IMG/VR virus record: IMGVR_UViG_3300031578_000392
Coordinates: 1-21,611 of that record
DNA from: a virus
DNA length: 21,611 nucleotides
Direction: 5' to 3' (one strand)
Position numbers and translations under genes: made by a program. Positions 23-19,822 of the stretch are shown one piece after another; within the stretch, counting starts at the first letter, position 1; each line of letters starts with the position of its first letter. The notes beneath the pieces were generated by a model. The model worked only from the letters and a program-made list of their open reading frames with translations, did no database searches and was not told the origin of the DNA.

Positions 23-769
23 TTACCTTTGGACCATGTGTCCGTATTTGCCCTTGATGTATTTGTCAGGATCCTGCTTTCCGCGCGGCCCCTTATTTGA
101 GGGGAATTTAGCTTCTCTTTCTTCGCGCTTCCATTTCGTTAAGATGCCGGTCACATAGGGCCAGTACCGTCTGTTTCGTTTTACTGCTTCATGGATAGCA
201 TCAATCACCCAGGCGGCCGAGAATATGTTGATAGTAGCTTCTATATCTTTCTCGATAATCTCACTAAGAGATTCCTCTTCATAGAGTCCTGCAATCTCTT
301 TTTTATAAACTTCAATAACATCTTCTTTTGATAAACTACTACTTTCTTCTTTAGTTTCTTCTTTAACTTTAACTTCTACTTTAACTTGTGCGGGATTATT
401 TCCAGAACCATTCTGTAAATTTTCCGTCTTTGGAGCAGGGATTTGTGATGGAAGTTCCTTGCTTTTGTTCAATCCTATTTGATGCTTCTTGAAATTAGGG
501 AAGCAAATATATGTTGTGCCACCGTTGATGTAACGTTGGATTAACCCACTTTCTACCAATTCATCAAGGTATTTTTGCATGGTTCTGACGTCCATAGAAC
601 GTTGAGGGAACACTATACTCTTGACCGTCTGGGGGTCTCCGTACATCCTGCCTTCGCAATCGAGATGTGGTATAAGCCAAGTGAAAAGAAGCCTTACGCT
701 ATCATTTGAAAGGGCATTCACCTTTTCGTCAAGGCTAATGACCTTGCTTATCATTCTGCCTCTAGCCAT
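23..769 (-). CDS. Phage replication initiator / DnaD-like replisome organizer
   Basis: This 248-residue protein probably helps start phage DNA replication. Residues 1-110 look like the winged-helix N-terminal domain of phage replisome organizers: a basic start (MARGRMISKVISLDEKVNAL), a helical segment with FTWLIPHLDCEGR, then two helices and a beta wing ending near ICFPNFKKHQIG. A low-complexity Lys/Glu/Val linker follows (about 115-145). The C-terminal region (about 150-225) ends in RYWPYVTGILTKW, which resembles the DnaD/DnaB-type C-terminal domain. The start has a good ribosome site (AGGGGG). It is the last complete gene of the early cluster, after a methyltransferase, a normal place for a replication gene. 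The family call is by motif resemblance; the exact subfamily is uncertain. Confidence 0.7.
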   Translation of the reverse strand: MARGRMISKVISLDEKVNALSNDSVRLLFTWLIPHLDCEGRMYGDPQTVKSIVFPQRSMDVRTMQKYLDELVESGLIQRYINGGTTYICFPNFKKHQIGLNKSKELPSQIPAPKTENLQNGSGNNPAQVKVEVKVKEETKEESSSLSKEDVIEVYKKEIAGLYEEESLSEIIEKDIEATINIFSAAWVIDAIHEAVKRNRRYWPYVTGILTKWKREEREAKFPSNKGPRGKQDPDKYIKGKYGHMVQR

Positions 770-804
770 CTAATACCCCCTGTCTATATCTTTCTGGACT
801 CTGC

Positions 805-1419
805 TCATTTACAATAACTCACTAATGATTTGGTTTTCCTGAATACCAAAAAGTAGCTATGAGATTTCCGTGCATGTTGCTGGTTTAGCATATTCGGGCT
901 GATTAATACGCTCCGGGTCAATAAAATGAATAGGTCAAGTGGATAGAAGCCAATATCCGAGGCGTAGTTTATAATTGAGACATGATTCAAATATTGCTTG
1001 CCAGACTCTATTGTATCTTGACATTTGAATATCAGGATACCCTCGGGAGCCAGCAAACGATAGAACTCAGTAAGGGCATCCTCGTAGAATCTAAGAAGCT
1101 CGGGCACATTCTTGTAGTAACCGAACCTCTCTTTGATAATCCCAGGCTTGCCATTTTTCCGGGACCCGCAGATAAAAGGCGGATCAAAGACTATACTATT
1201 CAAAGAGCTATCGGCAAGTGGCAAATGGCGACAATCACACTTAGTTACACCAAGAGATTGAGGGTTCAAATCAAACTTTAATTTCGGCTTAGGTACATTC
1301 TTATAAAACACCCCAGTGGAATACGTTGGGTCTAAATCAAACCCACTTAGGCAATACAGCCGGCAGATATTGTTTAATATCTCCCCTTGGTCACTTGATA
1401 CAGTTTCAATCATAAACAT
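805..1419 (-). CDS. Phage DNA methyltransferase (DPPF motif IV, adenine-N6 or cytosine-N4 type)
   Basis: This 204-residue protein is an S-adenosylmethionine-dependent DNA methyltransferase. Motif IV, VFDPPF, is at residues 77-82; the DPP(Y/F) form is typical of amino-methyltransferases acting on adenine N6 or cytosine N4. Upstream FDLDPTYSTGVFY (27-39) and the acidic CDCRHLPL strand (61-68) fit the rest of the fold, and EFYRLLAPEGILIFKCQD is the usual beta strand after motif IV. No target-recognition domain beyond the core and no partner restriction endonuclease gene are seen, so it looks like an orphan phage enzyme. Likely roles are protection from host restriction or marking phage DNA. A second ATG two codons downstream could be the true start. 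Confidence 0.82.
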   Translation of the reverse strand: MFMIETVSSDQGEILNNICRLYCLSGFDLDPTYSTGVFYKNVPKPKLKFDLNPQSLGVTKCDCRHLPLADSSLNSIVFDPPFICGSRKNGKPGIIKERFGYYKNVPELLRFYEDALTEFYRLLAPEGILIFKCQDTIESGKQYLNHVSIINYASDIGFYPLDLFILLTRSVLISPNMLNQQHARKSHSYFLVFRKTKSLVSYCK

Positions 1420-1495
1420 TTCACTTTATATCTGCTCGCGGTCTAGCCATCTATTCTCCCCAAATCAAAAAGAAGGAATGAGAAGAAGGTAATAG

Positions 1496-1693
1496 TCATT
1501 TAGGCTCCTTATCATAAAGATTACAAGTGGATTTGTGTGTTCTGGGGTCTCTGACTAATATTTGCCTGATTCGTTCTGGGTTTTCACACATATTGCCATA
1601 CTGGTCAGAATATAAGAACCTACATCCTTTGCACCAATCATTCCCTAGAAACCAATCCTGTATGAAGTTACGAAGCCGAATCCCAAACTTCAT
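1496..1693 (-). CDS. Small cysteine-containing phage protein
   Basis: A 65-residue protein of unknown function. I chose the internal ATG at 1693 (MKFGIRLRNFIQDW) because AAAGGAGAGGAA sits directly before it; the longer reading from 1723 lacks a clear ribosome site. Four cysteines (WCKGCRF, NMCENP, STCNLYD) suggest metal binding or a compact fold. It lies in a run of small early genes between the methyltransferase and recombination genes. No family is recognised. Confidence 0.6.
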   Translation of the reverse strand: MKFGIRLRNFIQDWFLGNDWCKGCRFLYSDQYGNMCENPERIRQILVRDPRTHKSTCNLYDKEPK

Positions 1694-1732
1694 TTCCTCT
1701 CCTTTGCAAGAGCAATAATTCATAATCCCTAT

Positions 1733-1942
1733 TCAAAAATTAATTATTTCGACATTATGAATAAAGCGTTTACAGTTACCACAACAATTCCCCAAGGGCA
1801 TATTGATAGTCATTCGCCAGTTGCCCCGTTTGCTACAATCCCGCCCACATATTGCTCTTGTAGAAACTGTCTGTGTATTGGCATCAGCCCGAACTATATG
1901 TAGTTTCTGCCCCCCATATTCCTGTGCATATCTAGCAAACAT
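1733..1942 (-). CDS. Small CxxC phage protein
   Basis: A 69-residue protein of unknown function. It is preceded by a strong AGGAGG site eight bases before the ATG. The middle carries C-x3-C and CCxxC arrangements (ICGRDCSKRG and GNCCGNCKR), consistent with a small zinc-binding domain. It belongs to the early cluster of tiny proteins, and its leader carries the GGGATTATGAAT intergenic motif also seen near other genes here. Confidence 0.6.
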   Translation of the reverse strand: MFARYAQEYGGQKLHIVRADANTQTVSTRAICGRDCSKRGNWRMTINMPLGNCCGNCKRFIHNVEIINF

Positions 1943-1959
1943 TTTTAGCCTCCTTATTC

Positions 1960-1975
1960 ATAATCCCCATTCCTT
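1960..1975. repeat. Intergenic motif GGGATTAT, copy B
   Basis: AAGGAATGGGGATTAT (minus strand), identical over 16 bases to 2597-2612. Shorter relatives (GGGATTATGAAT) are at 1718-1734 and 2398-2410. Each lies just before a small early gene. Confidence 0.6.
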
Positions 1976-2199
1976 CAAGAATGGCTATTTACTCTTAGTT
2001 CCAGTACTTTCATCTCATCCTCATAGACAAAATGGCTACGATATGAAATTTCCGCAAGCTCGCTTTGAAAATCAACTATCCAGGATGCCGGCATAGTCTC
2101 TGTTGCGGGTATCCATCTCTCTCGGACCTTCCCGGTTTGACCGCGGCTCAGTATGGGTGGAATGTCCTTTATAATTTGCACGTAGTCTCCTATTTGCAC
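1975..2199 (-). CDS. Small SH3/KOW-like phage protein
   Basis: A 74-residue protein. The start is GTG at 2199, preceded by TAGGAGG with ideal spacing. The opening pattern (MQIGDYVQIIKD, then GQTGKVRERW) resembles small SH3-like or KOW-type beta barrels in many phage early genes. Function is not assignable. The gene directly upstream (52 residues) ends inside this gene's ribosome binding site, so the two are probably translationally coupled. Confidence 0.6.
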   Translation of the reverse strand: MQIGDYVQIIKDIPPILSRGQTGKVRERWIPATETMPASWIVDFQSELAEISYRSHFVYEDEMKVLELRVNSHS

Positions 2200-2208
2200 T
2201 TTTACCTC

Positions 2209-2367
2209 CTATAGCTTCGCCTCTGTACCGACCTCAGATAGAGTCTCCTTGAGCCTGGCTATTGTGAGTTCATTCTTGTCTATCGTGTCGAAAAGCCTTC
2301 TATTCTCTCGCTCCAACTCTTCAATCTCCCTCTTTAGATCCTGTTTTTGCTCAATGAAGGTTTTCAT
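2209..2367 (-). CDS. Small coiled-coil phage protein (52 aa)
   Basis: This short reading frame starts MKTFIEQKQDLKREIEELER and ends ETLSEVGTEAKL. It is almost entirely charged heptad-like helix (QDLKREIEELERENRRLFDTI), a clear coiled-coil pattern. Its TAG stop overlaps the AGGAGG of the next gene, a typical phage operon arrangement that supports its reality. The ribosome site in front (GGATGAG) is only moderate. Function unknown; it may act as a dimerising partner of a neighbouring protein. Confidence 0.55.
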   Translation of the reverse strand: MKTFIEQKQDLKREIEELERENRRLFDTIDKNELTIARLKETLSEVGTEAKL

Positions 2368-2413
2368 AGTCGCTCATCCATTCTCCGAAGAATGTTCATT
2401 CATAATCCCAACT

Positions 2414-2584
2414 CTACTTGCTGAGTTTATCTAGGATTTGTTGCCAAGAACGCTTCTTTATCGGAATGATTAACCTATCTGGCACTTCACCTACAGGGAA
2501 ATCAGTTATAAAATAAACATCAGCATCCTTCGCAGCATAGGCATTTTCCTTTAGCCATTTTTTTACTTCATCTGTTATTTTCAT
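2414..2584 (-). CDS. Small phage protein, unknown function (56 aa)
   Basis: I chose the ATG at 2584 (MKITDEVKKWLKENAYAAKD) because AAAGGAGGG lies just before it and because this start overlaps the previous stop as ATGA. The longer reading upstream is the overlapping Cys-rich gene in another frame. The product is 56 residues, starts with an amphipathic helix and ends in KKRSWQQILDKLSK. No family is recognised. Confidence 0.6.
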   Translation of the reverse strand: MKITDEVKKWLKENAYAAKDADVYFITDFPVGEVPDRLIIPIKKRSWQQILDKLSK

Positions 2585-2742
2585 TTTCCCTCCTTTATAA
2601 TCCCCATTCCTTGAGCTTGGCTTGCCACTATCGGATATGCCCAGCCACACCAACCATAATGACAGCACAATGAACGCTTGTTCTTCCGCTTAATCCTAGC
2701 ATCACAATATGGCTTGTGAGACACGCAGGTTTTAATTTTCAT
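2581..2742 (-). CDS. Small cysteine-rich phage protein (53 aa)
   Basis: A 53-residue frame starting MKIKTCVSHKPYCDARIKRK, with a good ribosome site (GGAAGGTGA) and a TGA stop overlapping the next ATG as ATGA. Cysteines at residues 6, 13, 27, 28 and 32 (including CCHYGWC), a cluster of basic residues and the aromatic segment GWCGWAY suggest a small zinc-binding or nucleic-acid-binding protein. Function unknown. The first four-base overlap and the conserved operon style make it more than chance. Confidence 0.55.
   Translation of the reverse strand: MKIKTCVSHKPYCDARIKRKNKRSLCCHYGWCGWAYPIVASQAQGMGIIKEGK
2597..2612. repeat. Intergenic motif GGGATTAT, copy D
   Basis: Same 16 bases as 1960-1975. 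Here it forms the last codons of the Cys-rich gene and the leader of the 56-residue gene, immediately before its AAGGAGG. Confidence 0.6.
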
Positions 2743-2745
2743 TTA

Positions 2746-2796
2746 TTCACCTTCCTTTAGGAATTACTTTAACGAAGCCTTCCTTGAGCATATCTT
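2746..2796. repeat. Direct repeat, copy 1 (3' end of the 85-aa gene)
   Basis: This 51-bp segment matches 3170-3220 at 49 of 51 positions by eye. It covers the last codons (GFVKVIPK) and the ribosome site for the following gene. The near-identity at DNA level points to a recent duplication or ongoing recombination between the two paralogues. Confidence 0.85.
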
Positions 2797-3004
2797 GTCG
2801 AGCCTGTCTGACAGACGTTGCCTCAGTTAGGGTATATGGCCCTGATAAAGGCAAGTCTTGATTCTCTGCCCTTATCTCTATGCCATCAAGGGATAGGATT
2901 TGAGTTGCATAATGTTCTGCGCCTTTGCCTTGATAGGCACTTCCATCCATGACTGCCTTCCCAATTATTACTGCTATCTCTTTTACTTTCCGTTCATATT
3001 CCAT
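2747..3004 (-). CDS. Small phage protein, paralogue of the 3171-3482 product
   Basis: An 85-residue protein of unknown function, homologous within this window to the 103-residue product at 3171-3482. The two share QILSLDGIEIR, an acidic/Leu-Pro segment (DLPL versus QSLP) and a nearly identical C terminus (DMLK-x-GFVKVIPK). The N terminus is helical. Its stop codon overlaps the ribosome site of the next gene. The pair arose by tandem duplication (see the repeat entries). Confidence 0.65.
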   Translation of the reverse strand: MEYERKVKEIAVIIGKAVMDGSAYQGKGAEHYATQILSLDGIEIRAENQDLPLSGPYTLTEATSVRQARQDMLKEGFVKVIPKGR

Positions 3005-3005
3005 T

Positions 3006-3167
3006 TCAGTCTCCTTTCTGGATTAAGTCTGCATGCTGCTTAGGCTGTGAAGTTTTCATCCCGTGCTTAATTCCATGCACCATAGCATCCACATAAACTA
3101 TGCGTAGCCACCGTTCCAAAAACTTCCAATGTTGTTCAGCTAATTCCTTAGCTTCCTTCTCTGTCAT
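3006..3167 (-). CDS. Small phage protein, unknown function (53 aa)
   Basis: A 53-residue frame between the two paralogous genes, starting MTEKEAKELAEQHWKFLERW and continuing LRIVYVDAMVHGIKHGMK. Its ribosome site (GAAGGTGA) overlaps the upstream stop codon, and its own stop lies one base before the next ATG. The helical KELAEQHWKFLE...HGIKHG pattern resembles small early-region proteins I have seen in other siphoviruses. No function is known. Confidence 0.6.
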   Translation of the reverse strand: MTEKEAKELAEQHWKFLERWLRIVYVDAMVHGIKHGMKTSQPKQHADLIQKGD

Positions 3168-3169
3168 TC

Positions 3170-3220
3170 TTCACCTTCGTTTAGGAATTACTTTAACGAA
3201 GCCTGCCTTGAGCATATCTT
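3170..3220. repeat. Direct repeat, copy 2 (3' end of the 103-aa gene)
   Basis: Partner of 2746-2796 (49 of 51 positions equal). It encodes the same C-terminal GFVKVIPK segment and the same GAAGGTGA ribosome site. Confidence 0.85.
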
Positions 3221-3482
3221 CTTGTCCTAGCATATAATCGTTATAGCTTTTATTGACAGCATTTCTAACTGAAGGCAAGCTCTGGTCTTTACTTCTTATC
3301 TCTATGCCATCAAGAGAGAGGATTTGATTTATAGCTTCACCCACCGCCTTAGCCTTCAGGTCTGTGATTTCCATGAATTTAGGATTGCCAAGTTCTCGCT
3401 GTTTATCTTCTATCAACTCAGCGAGCCGATGGTCATAGTAATCTATTGCCTGCTCTATCTCTTCTCTTATCCGTTCATACAT
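3171..3482 (-). CDS. Small phage protein, paralogue of the 2747-3004 product
   Basis: A 103-residue protein of unknown function. The N-terminal 45 residues are strongly helical and charged (MYERIREEIEQAIDYYDHRL). The second half shares QILSLDGIEIR and DMLKAGFVKVIPK with its 85-residue neighbour. It probably represents the parental form, with the shorter one derived by duplication, or the reverse. It has a good GGAAGGTGA ribosome site. No catalytic motif is seen. Confidence 0.65.
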   Translation of the reverse strand: MYERIREEIEQAIDYYDHRLAELIEDKQRELGNPKFMEITDLKAKAVGEAINQILSLDGIEIRSKDQSLPSVRNAVNKSYNDYMLGQEDMLKAGFVKVIPKRR

Positions 3483-3546
3483 TCTTCACCTTCCTTTAAT
3501 CTCTCCTACTAGACGGGGGACAATGCCCCCCCCCGAGGTTGATGCC

Positions 3547-4491
3547 TTATTCAAGTCCTTTTGCCTTCTCTGCCGATATATCCTCGGCTTCCTTCTTGTG
3601 ACCATATATTGACACGATGGTCTCCCATGCCTTCTTTCGTTGCTCCGGCTTGGTGATGTCGAAGCTTGCTATCTCGGCATCCACCTTGGACTTGCTTAAC
3701 TTAAACTCTTTGAGGCAGGCTGTGTAGAACTCGCCCGGGTTCTTGAAGTCCAGGCTTTTCAGGTCTATCTTGGGTTCAATTACTGTTTCTTCAGATTCGT
3801 CATTACCTTGCTTTTGTTCTTGACCTGGCTGCTTTTTTATTTCTATGCGGCCAATGTCTTCCATATCCTGAGTAAAGATATCTGACAGTCTGCCGGCTGA
3901 TAATGCAGCATCCACCAGAGCCCGCTTCTTAGCCATCTTGAGGATAGTATTGACCTGGGAATAAATGTCTTCATTCTCGACCCTGCCGATTTGCTGCTCT
4001 TCAATCTCTGGATTCCCATCATAAAATTTGGCTCCGCACCCACCAGTTTTCTTGAAGCATATCCAGCCACCACCGTATTCCTCTTTCCCCTTAATGATTG
4101 CCTCAGCACCGCACACTGGACACTTCCGCTTAGATTCCCGCCATCTATATTTGCCCTCCATGCTGTTACACTCTCCAAGACCTTCGGTTATCACCGCATT
4201 AGTGGCTAGGTGAACCAGTCGGCATTTAATAAGATACCGGAATAGTGGTTCAGTCCAGTCCTCAACCTTATCCAGTATTTCATATTGATCCGAAAGTCCG
4301 AGCAGTTTGGCTATCTTCTCCGCGCCGGGCTTCAGCAAGGTAGGCTTTTGTGTACCTGGGATGACGCCATAATCCAGGCCTACAACCATAGTTGAATGGA
4401 CTATCTGCTGGAAGCGGTTTATAGCCTTCATATCATACTTGAATTGCTCTTCGTCCGGTAGTGTTAATGCTGTTATGATTTCTCCTTCCAT
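3547..4491 (-). CDS. Probable Rad52/annealase-like recombination protein with zinc ribbon
   Basis: This 314-residue protein is likely part of the phage recombination module, binding or annealing single-stranded DNA. The signature is SQVNTILKMAKKRALVDAAL followed by SAGRLSDIFTQDMED (about 178-212), a pattern I associate with Rad52/Erf-like phage proteins. GLDYGVIPGTQKPTLLKPGA (39-58) looks like the conserved N-terminal part. Between them is a zinc ribbon, CPVC (124-127) paired with C145 and C152. The C-terminal third is a variable linker plus a helical tail (YTACLKEFKLSKSKVDAEI). The coiled-coil gene just upstream, almost touching it, is a common partner. Family assignment is from memory of motifs and is moderately certain. 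Confidence 0.55.
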   Translation of the reverse strand: MEGEIITALTLPDEEQFKYDMKAINRFQQIVHSTMVVGLDYGVIPGTQKPTLLKPGAEKIAKLLGLSDQYEILDKVEDWTEPLFRYLIKCRLVHLATNAVITEGLGECNSMEGKYRWRESKRKCPVCGAEAIIKGKEEYGGGWICFKKTGGCGAKFYDGNPEIEEQQIGRVENEDIYSQVNTILKMAKKRALVDAALSAGRLSDIFTQDMEDIGRIEIKKQPGQEQKQGNDESEETVIEPKIDLKSLDFKNPGEFYTACLKEFKLSKSKVDAEIASFDITKPEQRKKAWETIVSIYGHKKEAEDISAEKAKGLE

Positions 4492-4492
4492 T

Positions 4493-5125
4493 CTATTTAC
4501 CTCCTTTGGCGACTGTAATGTATTTCTTCGTTATGAGTACACCGGGTATTTCTGTGACACCTGACTTTACCCTTGCTCGAATACGGCCCAAGTTAGGATC
4601 ACATAGTTCGCGAGGGACCAAGAGAGCGTTTACAATGCTTACATCAAAGTCCTCTCGATAAGTGACGCTGCCCAGGTGAGCATGGCTGGTTTTGAGTGGT
4701 GCTTCGGGGATATCCTCCGCCTGAACAATCTCGACAACCTCTCCTGTTTCTTTAGCCTCAGCAAACTGTTTCGCTTGTTCAGCGAGAGCTATCATCCTTA
4801 GCTCCTCTGCTTCTCTAGCTTGTTGGGCATGGTAGTTCTGTAAAGCCCCATTGACAATATGAATGCCCATGTTAAGTTTGTCAGTTAATGGCTTGAAGAG
4901 GGCGTTTATCCTGTCTCTGGTTTCATTAACCGGCTGTAACAAATCCTTACGTTTGGCTTCAATTTCTCGAAAGGCTTGTCTGGCATGGATTAGCAAGTCC
5001 TCAGCGTTTTTTTGCTCCGCATCAGTGGTAACAACCACACCTGTCATCCAGCTTAATAGTGTTGATTGACTCTGCTCAAGTGTGGTGACTTCGGTTTCTG
5101 TTCGTGTTTCTATTGTTTGCATCAT
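4493..5125 (-). CDS. Coiled-coil phage protein of the recombination module
   Basis: A 210-residue protein. Residues about 38-125 form a long Ala/Glu/Lys/Gln-rich coiled coil (AEDLLIHARQAFREIEAKRK onwards, then AREAEELRMIALAEQAKQFA). The C-terminal domain runs from TYREDFDVSIVNALLVPREL to IPGVLITKKYITVAKG and matches the small C-terminal domain of coiled-coil phage proteins usually next to recombinase genes. It ends one base before the recombination gene start, so the two are co-translated. The molecular role is unknown; a structural or nuclease-modulating role is possible. Confidence 0.6.
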   Translation of the reverse strand: MMQTIETRTETEVTTLEQSQSTLLSWMTGVVVTTDAEQKNAEDLLIHARQAFREIEAKRKDLLQPVNETRDRINALFKPLTDKLNMGIHIVNGALQNYHAQQAREAEELRMIALAEQAKQFAEAKETGEVVEIVQAEDIPEAPLKTSHAHLGSVTYREDFDVSIVNALLVPRELCDPNLGRIRARVKSGVTEIPGVLITKKYITVAKGGK

Positions 5126-5133
5126 TTACCTCC

Positions 5134-5325
5134 TTATGAATAAACCATTGTGGACTTAGGTCTTGGGTTTTTTTCTTGATCTGATTCCCTATACCAAGCC
5201 ATATAGGGTTTTCCCTGACTACCGAGTTCAGCTTGATCTTTGGGGTTTGTTAAATACCACAAGCCATCGCCTCGCTCTTCAATACGCCTCATCTTTCCAC
5301 CTATTTTCATTGTTACAGCTATCAT
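5134..5325 (-). CDS. Small phage protein, unknown function (63 aa)
   Basis: I chose the ATG at 5325 (MIAVTMKIGGKMRRIEERGD) because GGGGGG lies directly in front; a TTG four codons upstream is also possible. The product has a short beta-rich part (GLWYLTNPKDQ) and a basic tail. It sits in the early operon with short spacing on both sides. No family recognised. Confidence 0.5.
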   Translation of the reverse strand: MIAVTMKIGGKMRRIEERGDGLWYLTNPKDQAELGSQGKPYMAWYRESDQEKNPRPKSTMVYS

Positions 5326-5343
5326 CGTTCCCCCCAAATCCAG

Positions 5344-5541
5344 TCATATTGTTCTCCAAACTACTGGCGGACTTTCAACCACACCATAACTAGTAGATGC
5401 CAGTATGTAAGCCCTCTTGCCTTGATTCCCAAGCAACCCCAATAATCTCTCGGCCTCTAATCTGGCTTCATTAAGGACTAAGTGCATCTTTGCCGGTCCG
5501 CTTTTGCCTTCAATCCATACCATCCAGAATTTTTCATTCAT
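5344..5541 (-). CDS. Small phage protein, unknown function (65 aa)
   Basis: A 65-residue protein (MNEKFWMVWIEGKSGPAKMH...) with a beta strand, an amphipathic helix (NEARLEAERLLGLLGNQGKR) and a closing strand (AYILASTSYGVVE). This strand-helix-strand form is common among tiny phage early proteins, often with wording like AEAERLA...GK-VYVLEA, but no function is assigned to them. It is tightly packed against its neighbours in the operon. Confidence 0.6.
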   Translation of the reverse strand: MNEKFWMVWIEGKSGPAKMHLVLNEARLEAERLLGLLGNQGKRAYILASTSYGVVESPPVVWRTI

Positions 5542-5542
5542 C

Positions 5543-5728
5543 TTAGTTTTCCTTCCCCTTCAATTTTTCTTGGGCGACCTTCAGGATATTCTCAGGTGTT
5601 ACTCCTGTTTGGCTGAATCGGGCAATAACCTTTCCGTCCTTGAGAAGTTCCAAGATATGATCACCCTCTTCCCTTATATCAATGCCTTGTTGTTTCCATT
5701 CTTCCGTGATATAATTAGTTTTTAGCAA
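5543..5728 (-). CDS. Small phage protein, unknown function (61 aa)
   Basis: A 61-residue protein (MLKTNYITEEWKQQGIDIRE...) with alternating beta strands (HILELLKDGKVIARFSQTG) and a C-terminal helix (TPENILKVAQEKLKGKEN). It overlaps the upstream 129-residue gene by 14 bases and stops one base before the next start. No family recognised. Confidence 0.55.
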   Translation of the reverse strand: MLKTNYITEEWKQQGIDIREEGDHILELLKDGKVIARFSQTGVTPENILKVAQEKLKGKEN

Positions 5729-6104
5729 TCCTTAACTCCCTGGAGCCAGAAGCGATGAGGTCGCCCCTGGCTCCCTCCTGTATTTGCTTATGACCATTCG
5801 ACCCATGGCGCAACAAGTTAGCTGCGTATCTTAAACCACCTTCTCTGCCCCATTCGGCTAGAAGGTCATGATGTTTCCGAGCCGTTGCCTGTCCACCCAA
5901 GCTGCCAGATTCTACCCTTGTCAATTTGGGACGCATTTTGCGATCATGGATAACTTCAAGACACTCTCGGCGACGGCAATGATTAAGACAGAAATCCTGA
6001 GCTCCAGTTCTAAGCCGTCCATCTCCAAAGTCTTTCACCTTTGTTTTATCCTTATCCTTTAGTAGAGGACATTCATAATTTGTCGTCTTTGTCGCTGTTT
6101 TCAT
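5715..6104 (-). CDS. Phage protein with Cys cluster and KGG-like repeat
   Basis: A 129-residue protein of unknown function. The N-terminal half has cysteines at YECPLL, DFCLNHCRRRECLE, a pattern that could bind a metal. The second half has SLGGQATARKHHDLLAEWGR and then EGG, resembling the GG-x-A...H...GRxGG pattern of KGG/stress-induced small proteins. Overall charge is strongly basic, so nucleic-acid binding is plausible but unproven. It overlaps the next upstream gene by four bases. Confidence 0.5.
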   Translation of the reverse strand: MKTATKTTNYECPLLKDKDKTKVKDFGDGRLRTGAQDFCLNHCRRRECLEVIHDRKMRPKLTRVESGSLGGQATARKHHDLLAEWGREGGLRYAANLLRHGSNGHKQIQEGARGDLIASGSRELRIAKN

Positions 6105-6418
6105 ACCAAACTCATCGTGTTAAATAAGCAAATCCCCAGCATCGCAGCAATTAGAATGACGAATATTCTTTTTACTGGCCGGGGGTATCTATTTGACAAT
6201 ATGAGAAGCACCAGGGCAAAGATTAGCGCCATGCCGATTTTGAATCCCCAGAACACCCATCCGGGCTGCCCTAAAAGGTCCCTCATTATCGGGTTCAATT
6301 CACTCACTCCGCCCTTACTTATTGCTGTTACGGTAAGAGCGGCATCTAGGATATTCAGAGCAACAAAGGCAATCGCCAGTTTTATATTTCTCATCTCTGA
6401 TTTCCTTATAGTTTCCAT
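6101..6418 (-). CDS. DUF5658-like small membrane protein
   Basis: A 105-residue protein with three predicted membrane segments (about 12-33, 53-75 and 84-102). The first carries NILDAALTVTAISKGGVSEL followed by NP, matching DUF5658 proteins (N-x-x-D-A-x-x-T ... E-L-N-P). Biochemical function is unknown. It starts immediately after the integrase stop codon and overlaps the next gene, so it is probably in the integrase operon. An internal ATG (MRNIKL, at 6394) has the better ribosome site (AAGGAA) and could be the real start. Confidence 0.65.
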   Translation of the reverse strand: METIRKSEMRNIKLAIAFVALNILDAALTVTAISKGGVSELNPIMRDLLGQPGWVFWGFKIGMALIFALVLLILSNRYPRPVKRIFVILIAAMLGICLFNTMSLV

Positions 6419-7282
6419 TTAGGAAGAAACCCCTCTCTTATTACTTCTCTCAAATACCTTTCCTGGTGTATGCTTGTGGTGTATCTCGATAACATCTTCG
6501 GTTAATAAAGGTGCGTAGTAATCTGCCGTTGTCTTGATACTTTTATGTCCCAGGATAAGAGAAAGAGATTGCATATCTCCGCCATCTTTCAAATGAAATC
6601 TCCCGAATGAGCGTCTCAAAGTTTGCGGGCCAAACTGCTTACCCGAGTAGCCCACCATAGTGAGGTACTTCTTGACTACCTTGTAAAAGCCAGTCGAACC
6701 TAACGGTTTGTTTTTGTTTTTATTCGTACCGTGAAAGACATAACCATCTTCATGGACTGGTAAGGATAGAATCAAGTCTCTAGTAATCTTGGAGATAGGA
6801 GCTACCCTATATCCCGTCTTGCCATGTATGATGATTCGGTCTTCGCCAACATCTCTTCTCTTTAGATTAACTGCCTCACCCTCTCGGATAGCAGTATCAA
6901 TGAATAGAGCGAGAATCGCCTTGTCTCTAGCTGGCGCTTTCTCTAAGAACACGGCTAATAGGTTTAGCTCCGTGTCTGAGATTGTGGGCATGATTTGTTT
7001 GGGAACACGGGGACGGGTCACACCTCGCATGAAATTGGGAATGCCATATCGCCTCTCGGCATAATTCCCTAGAGCGTGATAAGTTCGCCAGTGGGAATCG
7101 GCATTATAAGTTCCCTTGATAGTTGACAGAAAAATCTGTATGCTTTCAGGTTTTGGTGGGAACTGTGGGGATAGTTGGATAAGTCGCTTGACATGGTAAT
7201 CGTAGCCTCTTAGGGTTCTGGGAGAGAGGCCCCTGAGCCTACAATCAGCCATGAAACTAGCGACAACCTCCTGTGTCTTCAC
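6419..7282 (-). CDS. int: Tyrosine recombinase (phage integrase)
   Basis: This 287-residue integrase would catalyse site-specific recombination between attP and a host tRNA gene. The N-terminal SAM-like domain (about 1-90) includes FMADCRLRGLSPRTLRGYDY. The catalytic domain shows R133 (TAIREGEAVNL), K155 (HGKTGYR), R223 (QTLRRSF), H246 (LGHKSIKTT) and the nucleophile Y255 (or Y256). The usual His of the HxxR box is Gln220 here, a departure from consensus. The start is GTG at 7282 with GGAGG eight bases before it. The tRNA-like att core lies 55 bp upstream of the start, the standard int-attP arrangement. Length is normal for a compact phage integrase. Confidence 0.95.
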   Translation of the reverse strand: MKTQEVVASFMADCRLRGLSPRTLRGYDYHVKRLIQLSPQFPPKPESIQIFLSTIKGTYNADSHWRTYHALGNYAERRYGIPNFMRGVTRPRVPKQIMPTISDTELNLLAVFLEKAPARDKAILALFIDTAIREGEAVNLKRRDVGEDRIIIHGKTGYRVAPISKITRDLILSLPVHEDGYVFHGTNKNKNKPLGSTGFYKVVKKYLTMVGYSGKQFGPQTLRRSFGRFHLKDGGDMQSLSLILGHKSIKTTADYYAPLLTEDVIEIHHKHTPGKVFERSNKRGVSS

Positions 7283-7337
7283 GGTGACCGCCTCCTTTCG
7301 CTAATTCATGACATAATTGTAGGGGAAGATTAGAGAG

Positions 7338-7381
7338 TGAGCCGCCAGGGGATCGAACCCTGAACCTGCTGATTAAGAGTC
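7338..7381 (-). other. attP core: 3' half of a tRNA-Lys(CTT) gene
   Basis: On the minus strand this reads as the 3' half of a tRNA: anticodon loop CTCTTAA (anticodon CTT, Lys), stem strand TCAGC, variable loop, a perfect T arm (CAGGG-TTCGATC-CCCTG) and acceptor strand GCGGCTC with discriminator A; CCA is not encoded. No D arm or 5' acceptor strand follows upstream, and only the two bases next to the anticodon loop continue the stem, so homology begins there. A partial tRNA beside an integrase is the classic attachment core. Phage genes lie on both sides, which favours attP over attL or attR. Confidence 0.82.
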
Positions 7382-7393
7382 TGATTGCCTGTT

Positions 7394-7564
7394 TCATTGG
7401 TGATTATTCCTTTGTCTTGCCCGCCAGATAACCATTGACACAGCACTGGTTTTCATCTTGAACATTCGTGCAATAGATTTATGTCTCCACCCATTATCGG
7501 CAAGCTCCAATATCTTTTCATTTCGCTTCCGGTATCTTTCTACTATTATGTTATCTATTTTCAC
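7394..7564 (-). CDS. Small helix-turn-helix protein next to attP (56 aa)
   Basis: A frame starting with GTG (MKIDNIIVERYRKRNEKILE) and ending RARQRNNHQ. The region ILELADNGWRHKSIARMFKM then KTSAVSMVIWRARQ is a convincing helix-turn-helix of the Trp-repressor/sigma-region-4/transposase type. It could be an excisionase, a small repressor or an activator. No ribosome site precedes the GTG, but a TTGACA promoter lies so close that the mRNA would be nearly leaderless. The stop codon is 12 bp from the attP core. Integration would separate this gene from int. Existence is likely; the function is inference. Confidence 0.65.
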   Translation of the reverse strand: MKIDNIIVERYRKRNEKILELADNGWRHKSIARMFKMKTSAVSMVIWRARQRNNHQ

Positions 7565-7574
7565 TTCTATTCAC

Positions 7575-7603
7575 ACTTTATCACACCCCCGAAATCTTGT
7601 CAA
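7575..7603 (-). promoter_or_regulatory. Sigma70-type promoter before the HTH gene
   Basis: The minus strand has TTGACA at 7603-7598, a 17-base spacer, then TAAAGT at 7580-7575. The predicted transcription start is about 3-5 bases before the GTG of the HTH gene. The -10 box overlaps a GTG-rich stretch (GTGTGATAAAGTGTGAATAG) with repeats about 10 bp apart that could be an operator. Confidence 0.5.
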
Positions 7604-8044: not shown

Positions 8045-8077
8045 AAAATAAAAAAGTCCCCCTAGATTTCTCCAGGG
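8045..8077 (-). terminator. Rho-independent terminator of the late operon
   Basis: On the minus strand, CCCTGGA-GAAA-TCTAGGG forms a 7-bp stem (one G-U pair) with a GAAA tetraloop, followed by GG AC and then TTTTTTATTTT. The T-tract is on the minus side only. It follows the last lysis-type gene and closes the structural/lysis transcription unit. Confidence 0.75.
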
Positions 8078-16488: not shown

Positions 16489-16799
16489 GTATTCCCTTCA
16501 TCGGTTCCCATCAAGTCAGGTTCCGCCCAGGCCATAGCAGGGGTAGTGCTTTCAGCATCTTTTAATTTAGCCGCCATATCAAGCATATTTTTTGTAATAC
16601 TCTGAGTATAGGCATAACCTCCAATAGTTTCACTGGCGGGACTTGCCGCATAAGCAGCCGCCCATGCTTCTAATGCTGCCGCTGAGGCTAAATTAACCGA
16701 ACCCTCATCAGTTAAGAATGATTGCAAATCAGTATTTTCGAACTGATAAGGCTCCGTTCTGTCACCTATTTTAAGCCTGATTTTTTCTATATCTGTCAT
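16485..16799 (-). CDS. Head-tail connector protein (gp6/gp15-like)
   Basis: A 104-residue helical protein (MTDIEKIRLKIGDRTEPYQF). The pattern I-E-K-I-R-x-x-I-G-D-x-x...F-x-D/N-x-x-L-x-x-F-L then NLASAAALEAWAAAYAASPA is the form of small connector proteins that dock on the portal. It is followed directly by the head closure gene. Its ATG overlaps the stop of the 1008-residue protein (ATGA). Confidence 0.8.
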   Translation of the reverse strand: MTDIEKIRLKIGDRTEPYQFENTDLQSFLTDEGSVNLASAAALEAWAAAYAASPASETIGGYAYTQSITKNMLDMAAKLKDAESTTPAMAWAEPDLMGTDEGNT

Positions 16800-19700
16800 C
16801 GTTTTACCTCTCTACATATAGGTACTTCTGATTCTGGAATTTCCTTCGATAAAACTCGTTCTATTGGAGTCCTCTTTACGGGAAACCGTGAAACAGGGAC
16901 TCTCTTAGGAGAAAGCCAAGATATCGAGGTTCTCTTTAAGGAGACTCTCTCTATAGGAACCCTTACTGGGGAAAGCCGAGCTATGGGAACACTCAATGGC
17001 TGGCAATACCAGGCAGCTCCATCTGAAAGGATTAAACCTTCTCCGATAAACACGGCGCTGCCCGATACAATGGCAAATACCTCTCCAGAAGATAGAATTA
17101 TCCCTATCCCCACCACTTCGCCCTGTGAGAAGATAATTAAATTGCCACTGGAAATGAACTCACCCTCACCATAGATTTGACCTCCGCCCGGGATAAGTAG
17201 CTTACCACCTGATACGATTAGTCCTTCACCTGAGATTACTCCTGAAGTCGGGATAACAAACAATCCACTGGAGAGCATAGTTCCTATTCCTGAAATTGTG
17301 CCTTCCCCCAGGATAGTGATTAATCCTTCTGATAAAATAGTCCCAATGCCTGAAAAGATGCCACTACCTTCTATTATTGCAAAGGCTAATGTCTGAGCAG
17401 CTACAATATCGCCATAACCTATTCCCGCACTATTAACTGCAAAACCTCTTACCCGATACCAAGTGCTGGGGGTGAGGCTTGAGATTGTTAAGCTATATTC
17501 TCCCTCTCCGAATGAGCCATCTTCATAGGTTGTAGGGGTATAGCCAAGAACATAGGCACAGTCATCACCTGTAGTGTCAATCCAACTTGCGAAATAACGT
17601 GTTCTATAGCCAATAGGGGTTACATCACCAATCTGATACCATACTAGAACATAATTACTGCTATCTCCCCCAGAATACTCTGCCGAAATTCTAACCCATT
17701 CATTTACAGGGATAGACGAAGCAAATACTGCCTCTTCTAAAGTTGCTGCGGCTTGTAGGCTAGAGGCATCTCCCCAAACTTTACTACCTAATATATTGTC
17801 ATCTAGGTCTCTTATGGTAAAAGTCACATCCCCAGAAGGACTCCCAACCTTGCTTAATACAAATGAAAGACTATCCACAAAGCCATTAAGAATTGGTAAC
17901 TTCTGCCCTCTTTTTGTGACACCTCCATAAATAATTCCAGCAGTATCATACGCCATCTGCTCAACATCATCCTCCATTGTCTTCAAGTCCCAACTCTGAT
18001 AAACCCAATCAGCACCAGTTATCGTGCCGTCATTCGCATTTGCGGTAGAATCTCCTGCGGTAGCATCTACTCCTTCGTTGAGCTTCCAATATCCTACTAA
18101 TCCAGCCTCAGTTCCCACAAGCTCAGCATACATATTGGCTTGGATTTCGTCTTGAGTTCTGACATCATTCCAGATATGGATATCATCTTGTGTTCCATCA
18201 AGTCCAGGATAGCTAACTAACATTTTGCCTATTTTAATCGGTAATTTATTATTTCTAGGAATATAAGCTGATAGGTCAGCACTGGTAGCTTTTAGAACTC
18301 CATCAAAATATATCTTTACGAATGTGCCATCAAAGGTTGTTACCAAGTGCGTCTCTGTATTAAGGGGAATTGTGTCTATGGTTCCTACATATCTGTTAGT
18401 ACCAGTAGTATCGACGAAACCACTTTGCACTATATCTGTAGCCGAGATTTGTATAAACCTGTCTGTTACTTCAGCATCACCTATGTAACGCATTATTGTC
18501 TCATATGTTCCACTATCTACCTTTCGGTTAATCCATGTCTCAAAAGTCCAGACTGAGGGAGAACCTACAAGTATGTTGTCAATCCAAACTTCAGAGGTAC
18601 CAGCATTATTCAGGAAAGCCATTATTCCATTATTCCAAGGCTGGAATAACATAACAGCCCCGCTTTTTTCTATGGAGCCATTGAGGTAGATGTCATAAGT
18701 GTGTGCTACCCAGTTTACATTCCTGATACTTAATAGATACTTGGTATTTATTGATACGGTAGAACCAGTAGTTTTTTCACTACCATCATTATAGAACACC
18801 TTCTCATCAGTTCTTATTCCCATCTGAATCGTATATGAGCCATCACCATGACCAAGGATAAAATAAGATGTGTCATCTTTCCTTATCCAAAACTCAATAG
18901 ATTGTGTGGATGTTAAAGGACTCTTTGAAAAGTAAGCTGTAGATCTATTCGTACCATCCCTGTATAACCTGGCACATCTTGTCCCTTGATATGGTACACC
19001 TACTGCATCATCTATCTCAGCCTTGCTTGTCCCTGCCGCTGTGATTGTCCAAGTTACACTTCCACCGGAATCAGATAGGGGGTCTGTGTCGCTTCCCCAC
19101 TCAAAAGTTTCTACCGCAGCCGTGTTAGAATAATAGTCTGCAAGATAGGGTATCTCTACATAATCGCTAATCCCGTTGAAGTCCAGGGCATATTTAAGCC
19201 CTTCGGCATGGACAAACCCTCGCCTTGTTACAGTCAGCCCACCATCATCGGTTATATCGGCATTACCCGTAAATGAAACCGAACCAATATCTGTGACTGC
19301 CAGAGTATCAACAGTAGGTGCCTCTGCTTCTGTATAATAGACTGTGATTTTAACCCAATAGACATAAGCAGCATGGCTATAACCATCAGTATTTGCTGCT
19401 GATAGACGAATCCCGAAGTCCGAGTCATTAACCATTGCAGGAGTTGGTGATGCTCCCCAAGTATCACTCGCATCACCATAAGTGGCAGTAGTTTGGTCTA
19501 TTAGCCAATAACTCGCTGAGGCTTTATCATCCCCCACATTAGTTCCACTTGCATCCACTAGCCTAAGTGATGAATCCTTTATCACACCAGCCGTAGGTGA
19601 ACACCTGCTTATCTCTACTTTAATTCCATCTATGGTAGCACCAGAGGGAATAGCGAACCCAAAACTAGAGGCTCTCAGCCAGCCGGAATATGTCTCACCA

Positions 19701-19822
19701 CTGACAGAACACACAGCATAATTTGCCTCAGCCTGAATATATGTTGGGTTGCTCCAAAGTGGCTTGCCATCTCTATCTTCAGTTGAGCCTAAACTCGGGA
19801 AAGTTGCCCCTGTATCAGCCAT
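16796..19822 (-). CDS. Large multidomain lectin-like structural protein (LamG, FN3-like, tandem repeats)
   Basis: A 1008-residue protein inserted between head genes and the connector. Domains in order: N-terminal beta-sandwich (1-165); first half of an FN3-like domain (168-206, TVDTLAVTDIGSVSFTGNAD, then RRGFVHAEG); first strands of a LamG domain (209-234, YALDFNGISDYVEIPYLADY); an inserted concanavalin-like domain (236-422); the rest of that LamG domain (423-606, WTFETWINRK to GLVGYWKLNEG); another beta domain (611-760); the second FN3-like half (766-812, YSLTISSLTPSTWYRVRGFA). The end is a six-fold 20-residue Gly-rich repeat (818-937) and a six-fold 10-residue Arg/Pro repeat (943-1002). Its probable role is surface adhesion from the virion. 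The nested reading is inference. Confidence 0.75.
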   Translation of the reverse strand: MADTGATFPSLGSTEDRDGKPLWSNPTYIQAEANYAVCSVSGETYSGWLRASSFGFAIPSGATIDGIKVEISRCSPTAGVIKDSSLRLVDASGTNVGDDKASASYWLIDQTTATYGDASDTWGASPTPAMVNDSDFGIRLSAANTDGYSHAAYVYWVKITVYYTEAEAPTVDTLAVTDIGSVSFTGNADITDDGGLTVTRRGFVHAEGLKYALDFNGISDYVEIPYLADYYSNTAAVETFEWGSDTDPLSDSGGSVTWTITAAGTSKAEIDDAVGVPYQGTRCARLYRDGTNRSTAYFSKSPLTSTQSIEFWIRKDDTSYFILGHGDGSYTIQMGIRTDEKVFYNDGSEKTTGSTVSINTKYLLSIRNVNWVAHTYDIYLNGSIEKSGAVMLFQPWNNGIMAFLNNAGTSEVWIDNILVGSPSVWTFETWINRKVDSGTYETIMRYIGDAEVTDRFIQISATDIVQSGFVDTTGTNRYVGTIDTIPLNTETHLVTTFDGTFVKIYFDGVLKATSADLSAYIPRNNKLPIKIGKMLVSYPGLDGTQDDIHIWNDVRTQDEIQANMYAELVGTEAGLVGYWKLNEGVDATAGDSTANANDGTITGADWVYQSWDLKTMEDDVEQMAYDTAGIIYGGVTKRGQKLPILNGFVDSLSFVLSKVGSPSGDVTFTIRDLDDNILGSKVWGDASSLQAAATLEEAVFASSIPVNEWVRISAEYSGGDSSNYVLVWYQIGDVTPIGYRTRYFASWIDTTGDDCAYVLGYTPTTYEDGSFGEGEYSLTISSLTPSTWYRVRGFAVNSAGIGYGDIVAAQTLAFAIIEGSGIFSGIGTILSEGLITILGEGTISGIGTMLSSGLFVIPTSGVISGEGLIVSGGKLLIPGGGQIYGEGEFISSGNLIIFSQGEVVGIGIILSSGEVFAIVSGSAVFIGEGLILSDGAAWYCQPLSVPIARLSPVRVPIERVSLKRTSISWLSPKRVPVSRFPVKRTPIERVLSKEIPESEVPICREVKR
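16817..16996 (-). repeat. Six 30-bp repeats encoding 10-residue Arg/Pro units
   Basis: The units are LSVPIARLSP, VRVPIERVSL, KRTSISWLSP, KRVPVSRFPV, KRTPIERVLS and KEIPESEVPI, consensus KRVPIERLSP. They form a basic, probably extended C-terminal tail. The plus strand shows the periodicity as CTCTATWGGA-like elements every 30 bases. Copies differ by point changes, so the array is old or under selection. Confidence 0.8.
17012..17371 (-). repeat. Six 60-bp repeats encoding 20-residue Gly-rich units
   Basis: The units have the form xxxGxIxGxGxxLSSGxLxI, e.g. LGEGTISGIGTMLSSGLFVI and PTSGVISGEGLIVSGGKLLI. The last unit is offset by two residues. Regular Gly and aliphatic spacing suggests a beta-solenoid or stacked beta-strands. 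It is positioned between the FN3-like half and the Arg/Pro tail. Confidence 0.8.

Follow-up and report, generated by a model that had tools for sequence, protein, structure and literature searches.

It appears fairly probable that the attachment site (attP) of this phage, one of a small group from the environment, lies within its early operon, directly behind the operon's promoter (P_HTH) and first gene, a small HTH gene, and that integration disconnects P_HTH from what follows. The sequence-only reading of this DNA had likened the site to lysogeny switches with attP in or beside the regulator gene, and had taken int, the integrase gene, to be what is separated. The separation of a promoter by integration holds up in that analogy, but attP is placed behind the early promoter and not in the regulator's reading frame, and the separated unit, although it includes int, is larger, as the early genes lie downstream of int in the same orientation. 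The window, by which we mean the whole 21,611-bp IMG/VR virus record IMGVR_UViG_3300031578_000392 (positions 1 to 21,611), carries nearly all its genes on the minus strand (Table 1).

Table 1. Features of the window, in order of position.
Feature	Position	Strand	Remarks
Early genes downstream of int (exonuclease-like, DNA methyltransferase, DnaD-like initiator, unknowns)	23..6418	-	
int, tyrosine-recombinase integrase, 287 aa	6419..7282	-	PF00589 E 1.9e-16; phrog_1 E 6.5e-33
Bridging ORF, 46 codons	7257..7397	-	starts in ATGA of HTH stop, runs through attP, ends inside int
attP core, 3' half of tRNA-Lys(CTT), 45 nt	7337..7381	-	
HTH gene, 56 aa, GTG start	7394..7564	-	predicted three-helix DNA-binding protein
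P_HTH, TTGACA-N17-TAAAGT, TG before -10	7575..7603	-	best coding-strand promoter-like site of the window
110-aa ORF	between capsid/tail genes and HTH gene	-	
Terminator-like hairpin	8060..8077	-	between late genes and HTH region
Capsid and tail genes	21,578 down to ~8,100	-	precede the 110-aa ORF

The core, which reads GACTCTTAATCAGCAGGTTCAGGGTTCGATCCCCTGGCGGCTCAC as the reverse complement of window 7337-7381, agrees, apart from one mismatch, with the 3' portion of the complete tRNA-Lys(CTT) of the relative L005 (an ARAGORN call), and extends from the anticodon stem-loop to one base beyond the called tRNA. ARAGORN found no complete tRNA in the window, and the half itself was called by neither Rfam nor ARAGORN. 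Its sole sub-threshold Rfam match, the 5'UTR of plastid ycf2 (E 0.61), was judged spurious. The tRNA half thus lies between the HTH gene and int on one strand, as had been claimed, and since phage genes flank it on both sides, tail and capsid genes in one direction, early genes in the other, it is to be regarded as attP; nothing that had been named as speaking against this, such as a complete tRNA at the site, was found. The stop codon of the HTH gene (7394-7396) is 12 nt upstream of the core, so the HTH protein is left unaltered by integration. A relative, G001 (locus L002), has the same order of HTH gene, tRNA-Lys(CTT) half and int, and there a strong terminator-like hairpin likewise parts the late genes from the HTH region. 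Among the late genes of the window is a 1008-aa tail-region protein (16796-19822) with a laminin-G/ConA-like lectin domain (PF13385).

Among the relatives examined, only a single prophage had both of its ends in host DNA. It is a complete 37-kb prophage in tRNA-Lys(CTT) (G004, IMGVR_UViG_3300018018_000099; loci L005, L034 and L035), and has the layout that the sequence-only reading had predicted for such a prophage, with int behind the tRNA and the HTH gene at the far end. At one end (attL) host genes lead up to the complete tRNA-Lys(CTT), with int immediately behind it, and at the other end (attR) the order is HTH gene, tRNA half and host genes. The two copies of the core are 45 bp long, identical and 36,986 bp apart, and the core of the window differs from them by one base. 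The tRNA is rebuilt on integration, complete at attL and half at attR, and two things that had been foreseen from the window are directly visible here, namely that the HTH gene and P_HTH are parted from int and that int is placed behind the rebuilt tRNA. Since G001 shares the order and G004 shows both junctions, the arrangement in the window is not due to chance. The host genes before the tRNA have translations that, read by eye, resemble signal peptidase and pyrE. A tRNA-type promoter stands ahead of int at attL in the same direction, and no terminator-like hairpin was found before int there. The suggested use of the tRNA promoter for int in the lysogen fits this anatomy, but would not apply to the whole group, as the half is reversed in G002.

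An int profile run against genome contigs returned only Bacteroidota integrases, 24-26% identical, and no named host; the INPHARED phages held only distant integrases (<30% identity), and scans with a more distant int and with the tRNA-Lys(TTT) core of G002 gave no usable further members.

The window, G001, G002, G004 (with its ends rejoined), G006 and G008 share the order P_HTH, HTH gene, att region and int, while the identity of int falls to about 45%. What lies in the att region is less constant. The HTH gene of G002 is followed by half of a tRNA-Lys(TTT) in the opposite orientation and then by int, and in G006 and G008, whose integrases share 65% and 45% identity with that of the window, the HTH gene is directly upstream of int and a tRNA half is not recognisable. 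As the sequence and orientation of att vary while HTH, att and int stay together, the conserved feature is that int is separated from the HTH gene and P_HTH; judging by these sequences, a coupling between int and a tRNA promoter is not. Exceptions are L006 and L008, two related integrases without the HTH arrangement. L024 (G009) and L025 (G010) have lost int down to a C-terminal remnant and retain the HTH gene; P_HTH is also retained in both, in G009 with a poor -10 at 17-nt spacing, and in L025 the reading frame of the integrase remnant opens within the ATGA that holds the HTH stop codon. In the window int (6419-7282), and likewise in most relatives, QTLR seems to stand where tyrosine recombinases usually have HxxR.

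Phages with a different integrase (about 30% identity) that use the same tRNA-Lys(CTT) core, L029 and L031, served as controls. By inspection, the sequence before their att is unlike the HTH gene, and in L029 two coding-strand promoters tie for best, one 1,354 nt after att and one 1.9 kb ahead of it. The arrangement in the window and its relatives thus belongs to this phage group and is not imposed by the target. A further integrated int relative, with about 71% identity, is found in L004 (IMGVR_UViG_3300031275_000036, ~340-410), where a tRNA-Ala(GGC) half in reversed orientation and a transporter-like host gene adjoin it. No ATG, GTG or TTG start is present in its frame on the phage-proximal side of that half, and its start may come only from the circular form.

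Promoters were scored as matches to a sigma-70-like consensus, which may not be that of the host, and we infer the activity of P_HTH from such matches. Across the relatives P_HTH is of one type, with TTGACA, a spacer of 16-17 nt and an A/T-rich -10. It ranks first or tied first among the coding-strand sites in six of eight relatives (G000, G001, G004, G006, G008 and G010) and second in G002; some of the eight are homologous and not independent cases, with G004 and G008 far diverged from the rest. Sites of at least 10/12 were found neither between the HTH stop and int nor within 8 kb after int in G002, G004, G008 or the covered stretch of the window, and G001 and G006 have one each downstream of int, more than 6.4 kb away. 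An operator role for the G-run inside P_HTH was rejected: a similar run recurs in a minus-strand promoter of the L029 phage, and so it may be the promoter style of the host.

These promoters bear on the strongest alternative, that of an ordinary temperate phage targeting a tRNA, in which int and the early genes have promoters of their own that the scan missed, the repressor went unrecognised, the HTH gene is no more than a small neighbour of attP and the separation of P_HTH has no regulatory weight. In its favour, an attP adjoining int is common among tRNA-associated integrases (PMC2951348), L006 and L008 manage without the HTH arrangement, and most early proteins have no assigned family. The early regions of G002 and G004 contain gaps of 100-170 nt, where weaker or activated promoters may be located. 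It is harder to see why such a phage would have its best coding-strand promoter just ahead of HTH, att and int in nearly all relatives, with no comparable site between HTH and int or near int downstream, and why the order should persist though att changes in sequence and orientation. We hold this alternative to be possible, but unlikely.

We return to an attP behind the early promoter, and to the HTH gene. With a dN/dS of 0.05-0.18 among the relatives this gene is under purifying selection, and its predicted structure of three helices is confident (mean pLDDT 86.7), which together mark it as a real gene. Foldseek with this model gave generic HTH matches only, none with E < 0.001, and the solved structure hit by the HTH profile, 8vd6, is a repeat protein whose single units scored only 6-8 bits, nothing specific. 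The GTG start in the window is 10 nt past the -10 hexamer, and the HTH transcript is there predicted to be nearly leaderless; in G008 an ORF of 58 codons stands between promoter and HTH gene. To the left of P_HTH, on the strand opposite to the HTH gene, G002, G004, G006 and G010 have a gene for what by inspection is a predicted membrane or secreted protein and no repressor, in several cases with a TTGACA-type promoter of its own. Placed at the attR end, it is a candidate for lysogenic conversion or exclusion.

It is conceivable that the HTH protein is an excisionase (recombination directionality factor), so that derepressed P_HTH would trigger excision with int supplied by read-through from the tRNA; the protein is small, modelled as a three-helix HTH and encoded beside attP, and nothing of the HTH_17 excisionase type scored over the cut-off in eight of the nine records, but this is improbable, as strong promotion in the lysogen would destabilise it, a repeat search around attP gave no clear direct repeats in an arm-site pattern, and the gene is held under purifying selection in G009 and G010 (dN/dS 0.08 between the two), both with int mostly lost. 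Selection on the HTH gene where only an int remnant is left favours a regulator over a pure excisionase. The most likely role of the HTH protein is that of a regulator acting in trans to repress P_HTH, which would give autoregulation and immunity.

An ORF bridging the HTH gene and int, starting at or near the HTH stop, is found in all six att regions (in G004 after joining of the ends), with ATGA in three of them and a start 11 nt inside the HTH gene in G002. Its phase relative to int is constant, and it terminates within int in all six. Shuffling gave such an ORF at 0.08-0.5 per sequence, the sequences being partly related. The bridging ORF would fit a translational coupling of int to the HTH gene in the circle that is lost in the lysogen, but it is suggestive only.

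Downstream of int no gap between the genes of the window exceeds 64 nt up to reoriented position 19198. In all seven longer genomes a second, conserved promoter, P_L (TTGACA), is situated where the last early gene ends, ahead of the terminase region. The early gene that ends there encodes about 130-150 aa, with a Cys-rich start in most members and no Pfam or PHROG match, and its position makes it a candidate late regulator. In three genomes, where it has about 145 aa, its TGA stop lies inside the TTGACA of P_L (G001:10452, G002:17855 and G004:11226, reoriented; loci L045/L044, L047 and L035). Searches for HTH_3, HTH_19 and Peptidase_S24, which were positive in control genomes, gave nothing over the cut-off in any of the nine records covered; these are possibly incomplete, and a repressor of an unfamiliar family may sit among the many unnamed proteins.

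In the circular phage, P_HTH would transcribe, as a single early transcript, the HTH gene, the tRNA half, int, the early genes and the gene at the early/late boundary, with P_L following ahead of the terminase region. Integration at the 3' end of the tRNA would open the circle at attP and leave P_HTH and the HTH gene at one end, facing host DNA, and int and the early genes at the opposite end of the prophage without P_HTH. Because int and the early genes lose P_HTH on integration, their further expression would be shut off, and excision would restore it. Where the tRNA half is sense-oriented, weak read-through from the tRNA promoter would be the likely source of int for excision. In lysogens of the G004 type a tRNA promoter without a terminator would also feed the early genes, which counts against full silence. 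The HTH gene would remain joined to its own promoter in the lysogen. We tentatively raise the possibility, which we rate below that of the promoter separation itself, of a lysogeny without cI and Cro, in which integration amputates the only early promoter, the late promoter stays off for want of an early gene product and the small HTH protein, still joined to its promoter, gives immunity against incoming phages. If this is true, a rearrangement of the DNA stands in for repression of the early promoter in a phage lysogeny switch. Similar phages could be found by the signature of best promoter, small HTH gene, att half, int and early genes on one strand, with no cI.

Known switches share parts of this arrangement. 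The attP of mycobacteriophage BPs is inside the repressor gene and immunity depends on integration (PMC4557955); the likeness is that integration alters the regulatory state, and that regulator, attP and int are in line on one strand under one promoter. Here, by contrast, attP is outside the regulator ORF and there is no truncated active repressor. An immunity of the BPs type by repressor truncation was rejected, as the HTH stop precedes the core, and a divergent Cro-like gene was not detected (HTH_3 over the cut-off in none of nine records). The autoregulated intS of KplE1 (PMC2951348) is likewise a tRNA-associated tyrosine integrase at a prophage end, but its promoter overlaps attL, whereas here no site of at least 10/12 lies between core and int.

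Closer parallels are found among mobile conjugative elements. In ICEKp1, ICEclc and ICEEc1 int is under the tRNA promoter when integrated and under a promoter from the 3' end when excised (PMC13023037; Pcirc of ICEclc, PMC2892462). As in G004, int is directly behind the target tRNA in the integrated state, and a far-end promoter reads across the joined ends into int in the circle, as P_HTH is predicted to do; by sequence, P_HTH at the attR end of G004 is such an outward promoter that faces int only in the circle. Those elements are conjugative, while this is a tailed phage with a regulator gene between promoter and att and early genes after int. Terminator-like stem-loops before int are reported there and absent from attL of G004, and the tRNA half is reversed in G002. 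In Tn916, according to the accounts cited, integration parts an operon from Porf7 and silences it (PMC11658703, citing Celli and Trieu-Cuot 1998; PMC9956884). The separation of a main promoter from its operon, there one for replication and transfer that circularization rejoins, is found here in the sequence anatomy. No insulating terminator of that type was found at the operon end in attL of G004, and no antiterminator was identified. The phage differs in having early genes in place of transfer genes and a site-specific tRNA target. A limited search of openly licensed papers gave no description of a phage in which attP separates the early operon from its promoter. As far as we could find, promoter separation by integration is thus known for mobile conjugative elements, and its use on a phage early operon is apparently new; if the arrangement works as proposed, it ties the regulation of this phage to the logic of integrative elements such as Tn916 and ICEKp1.
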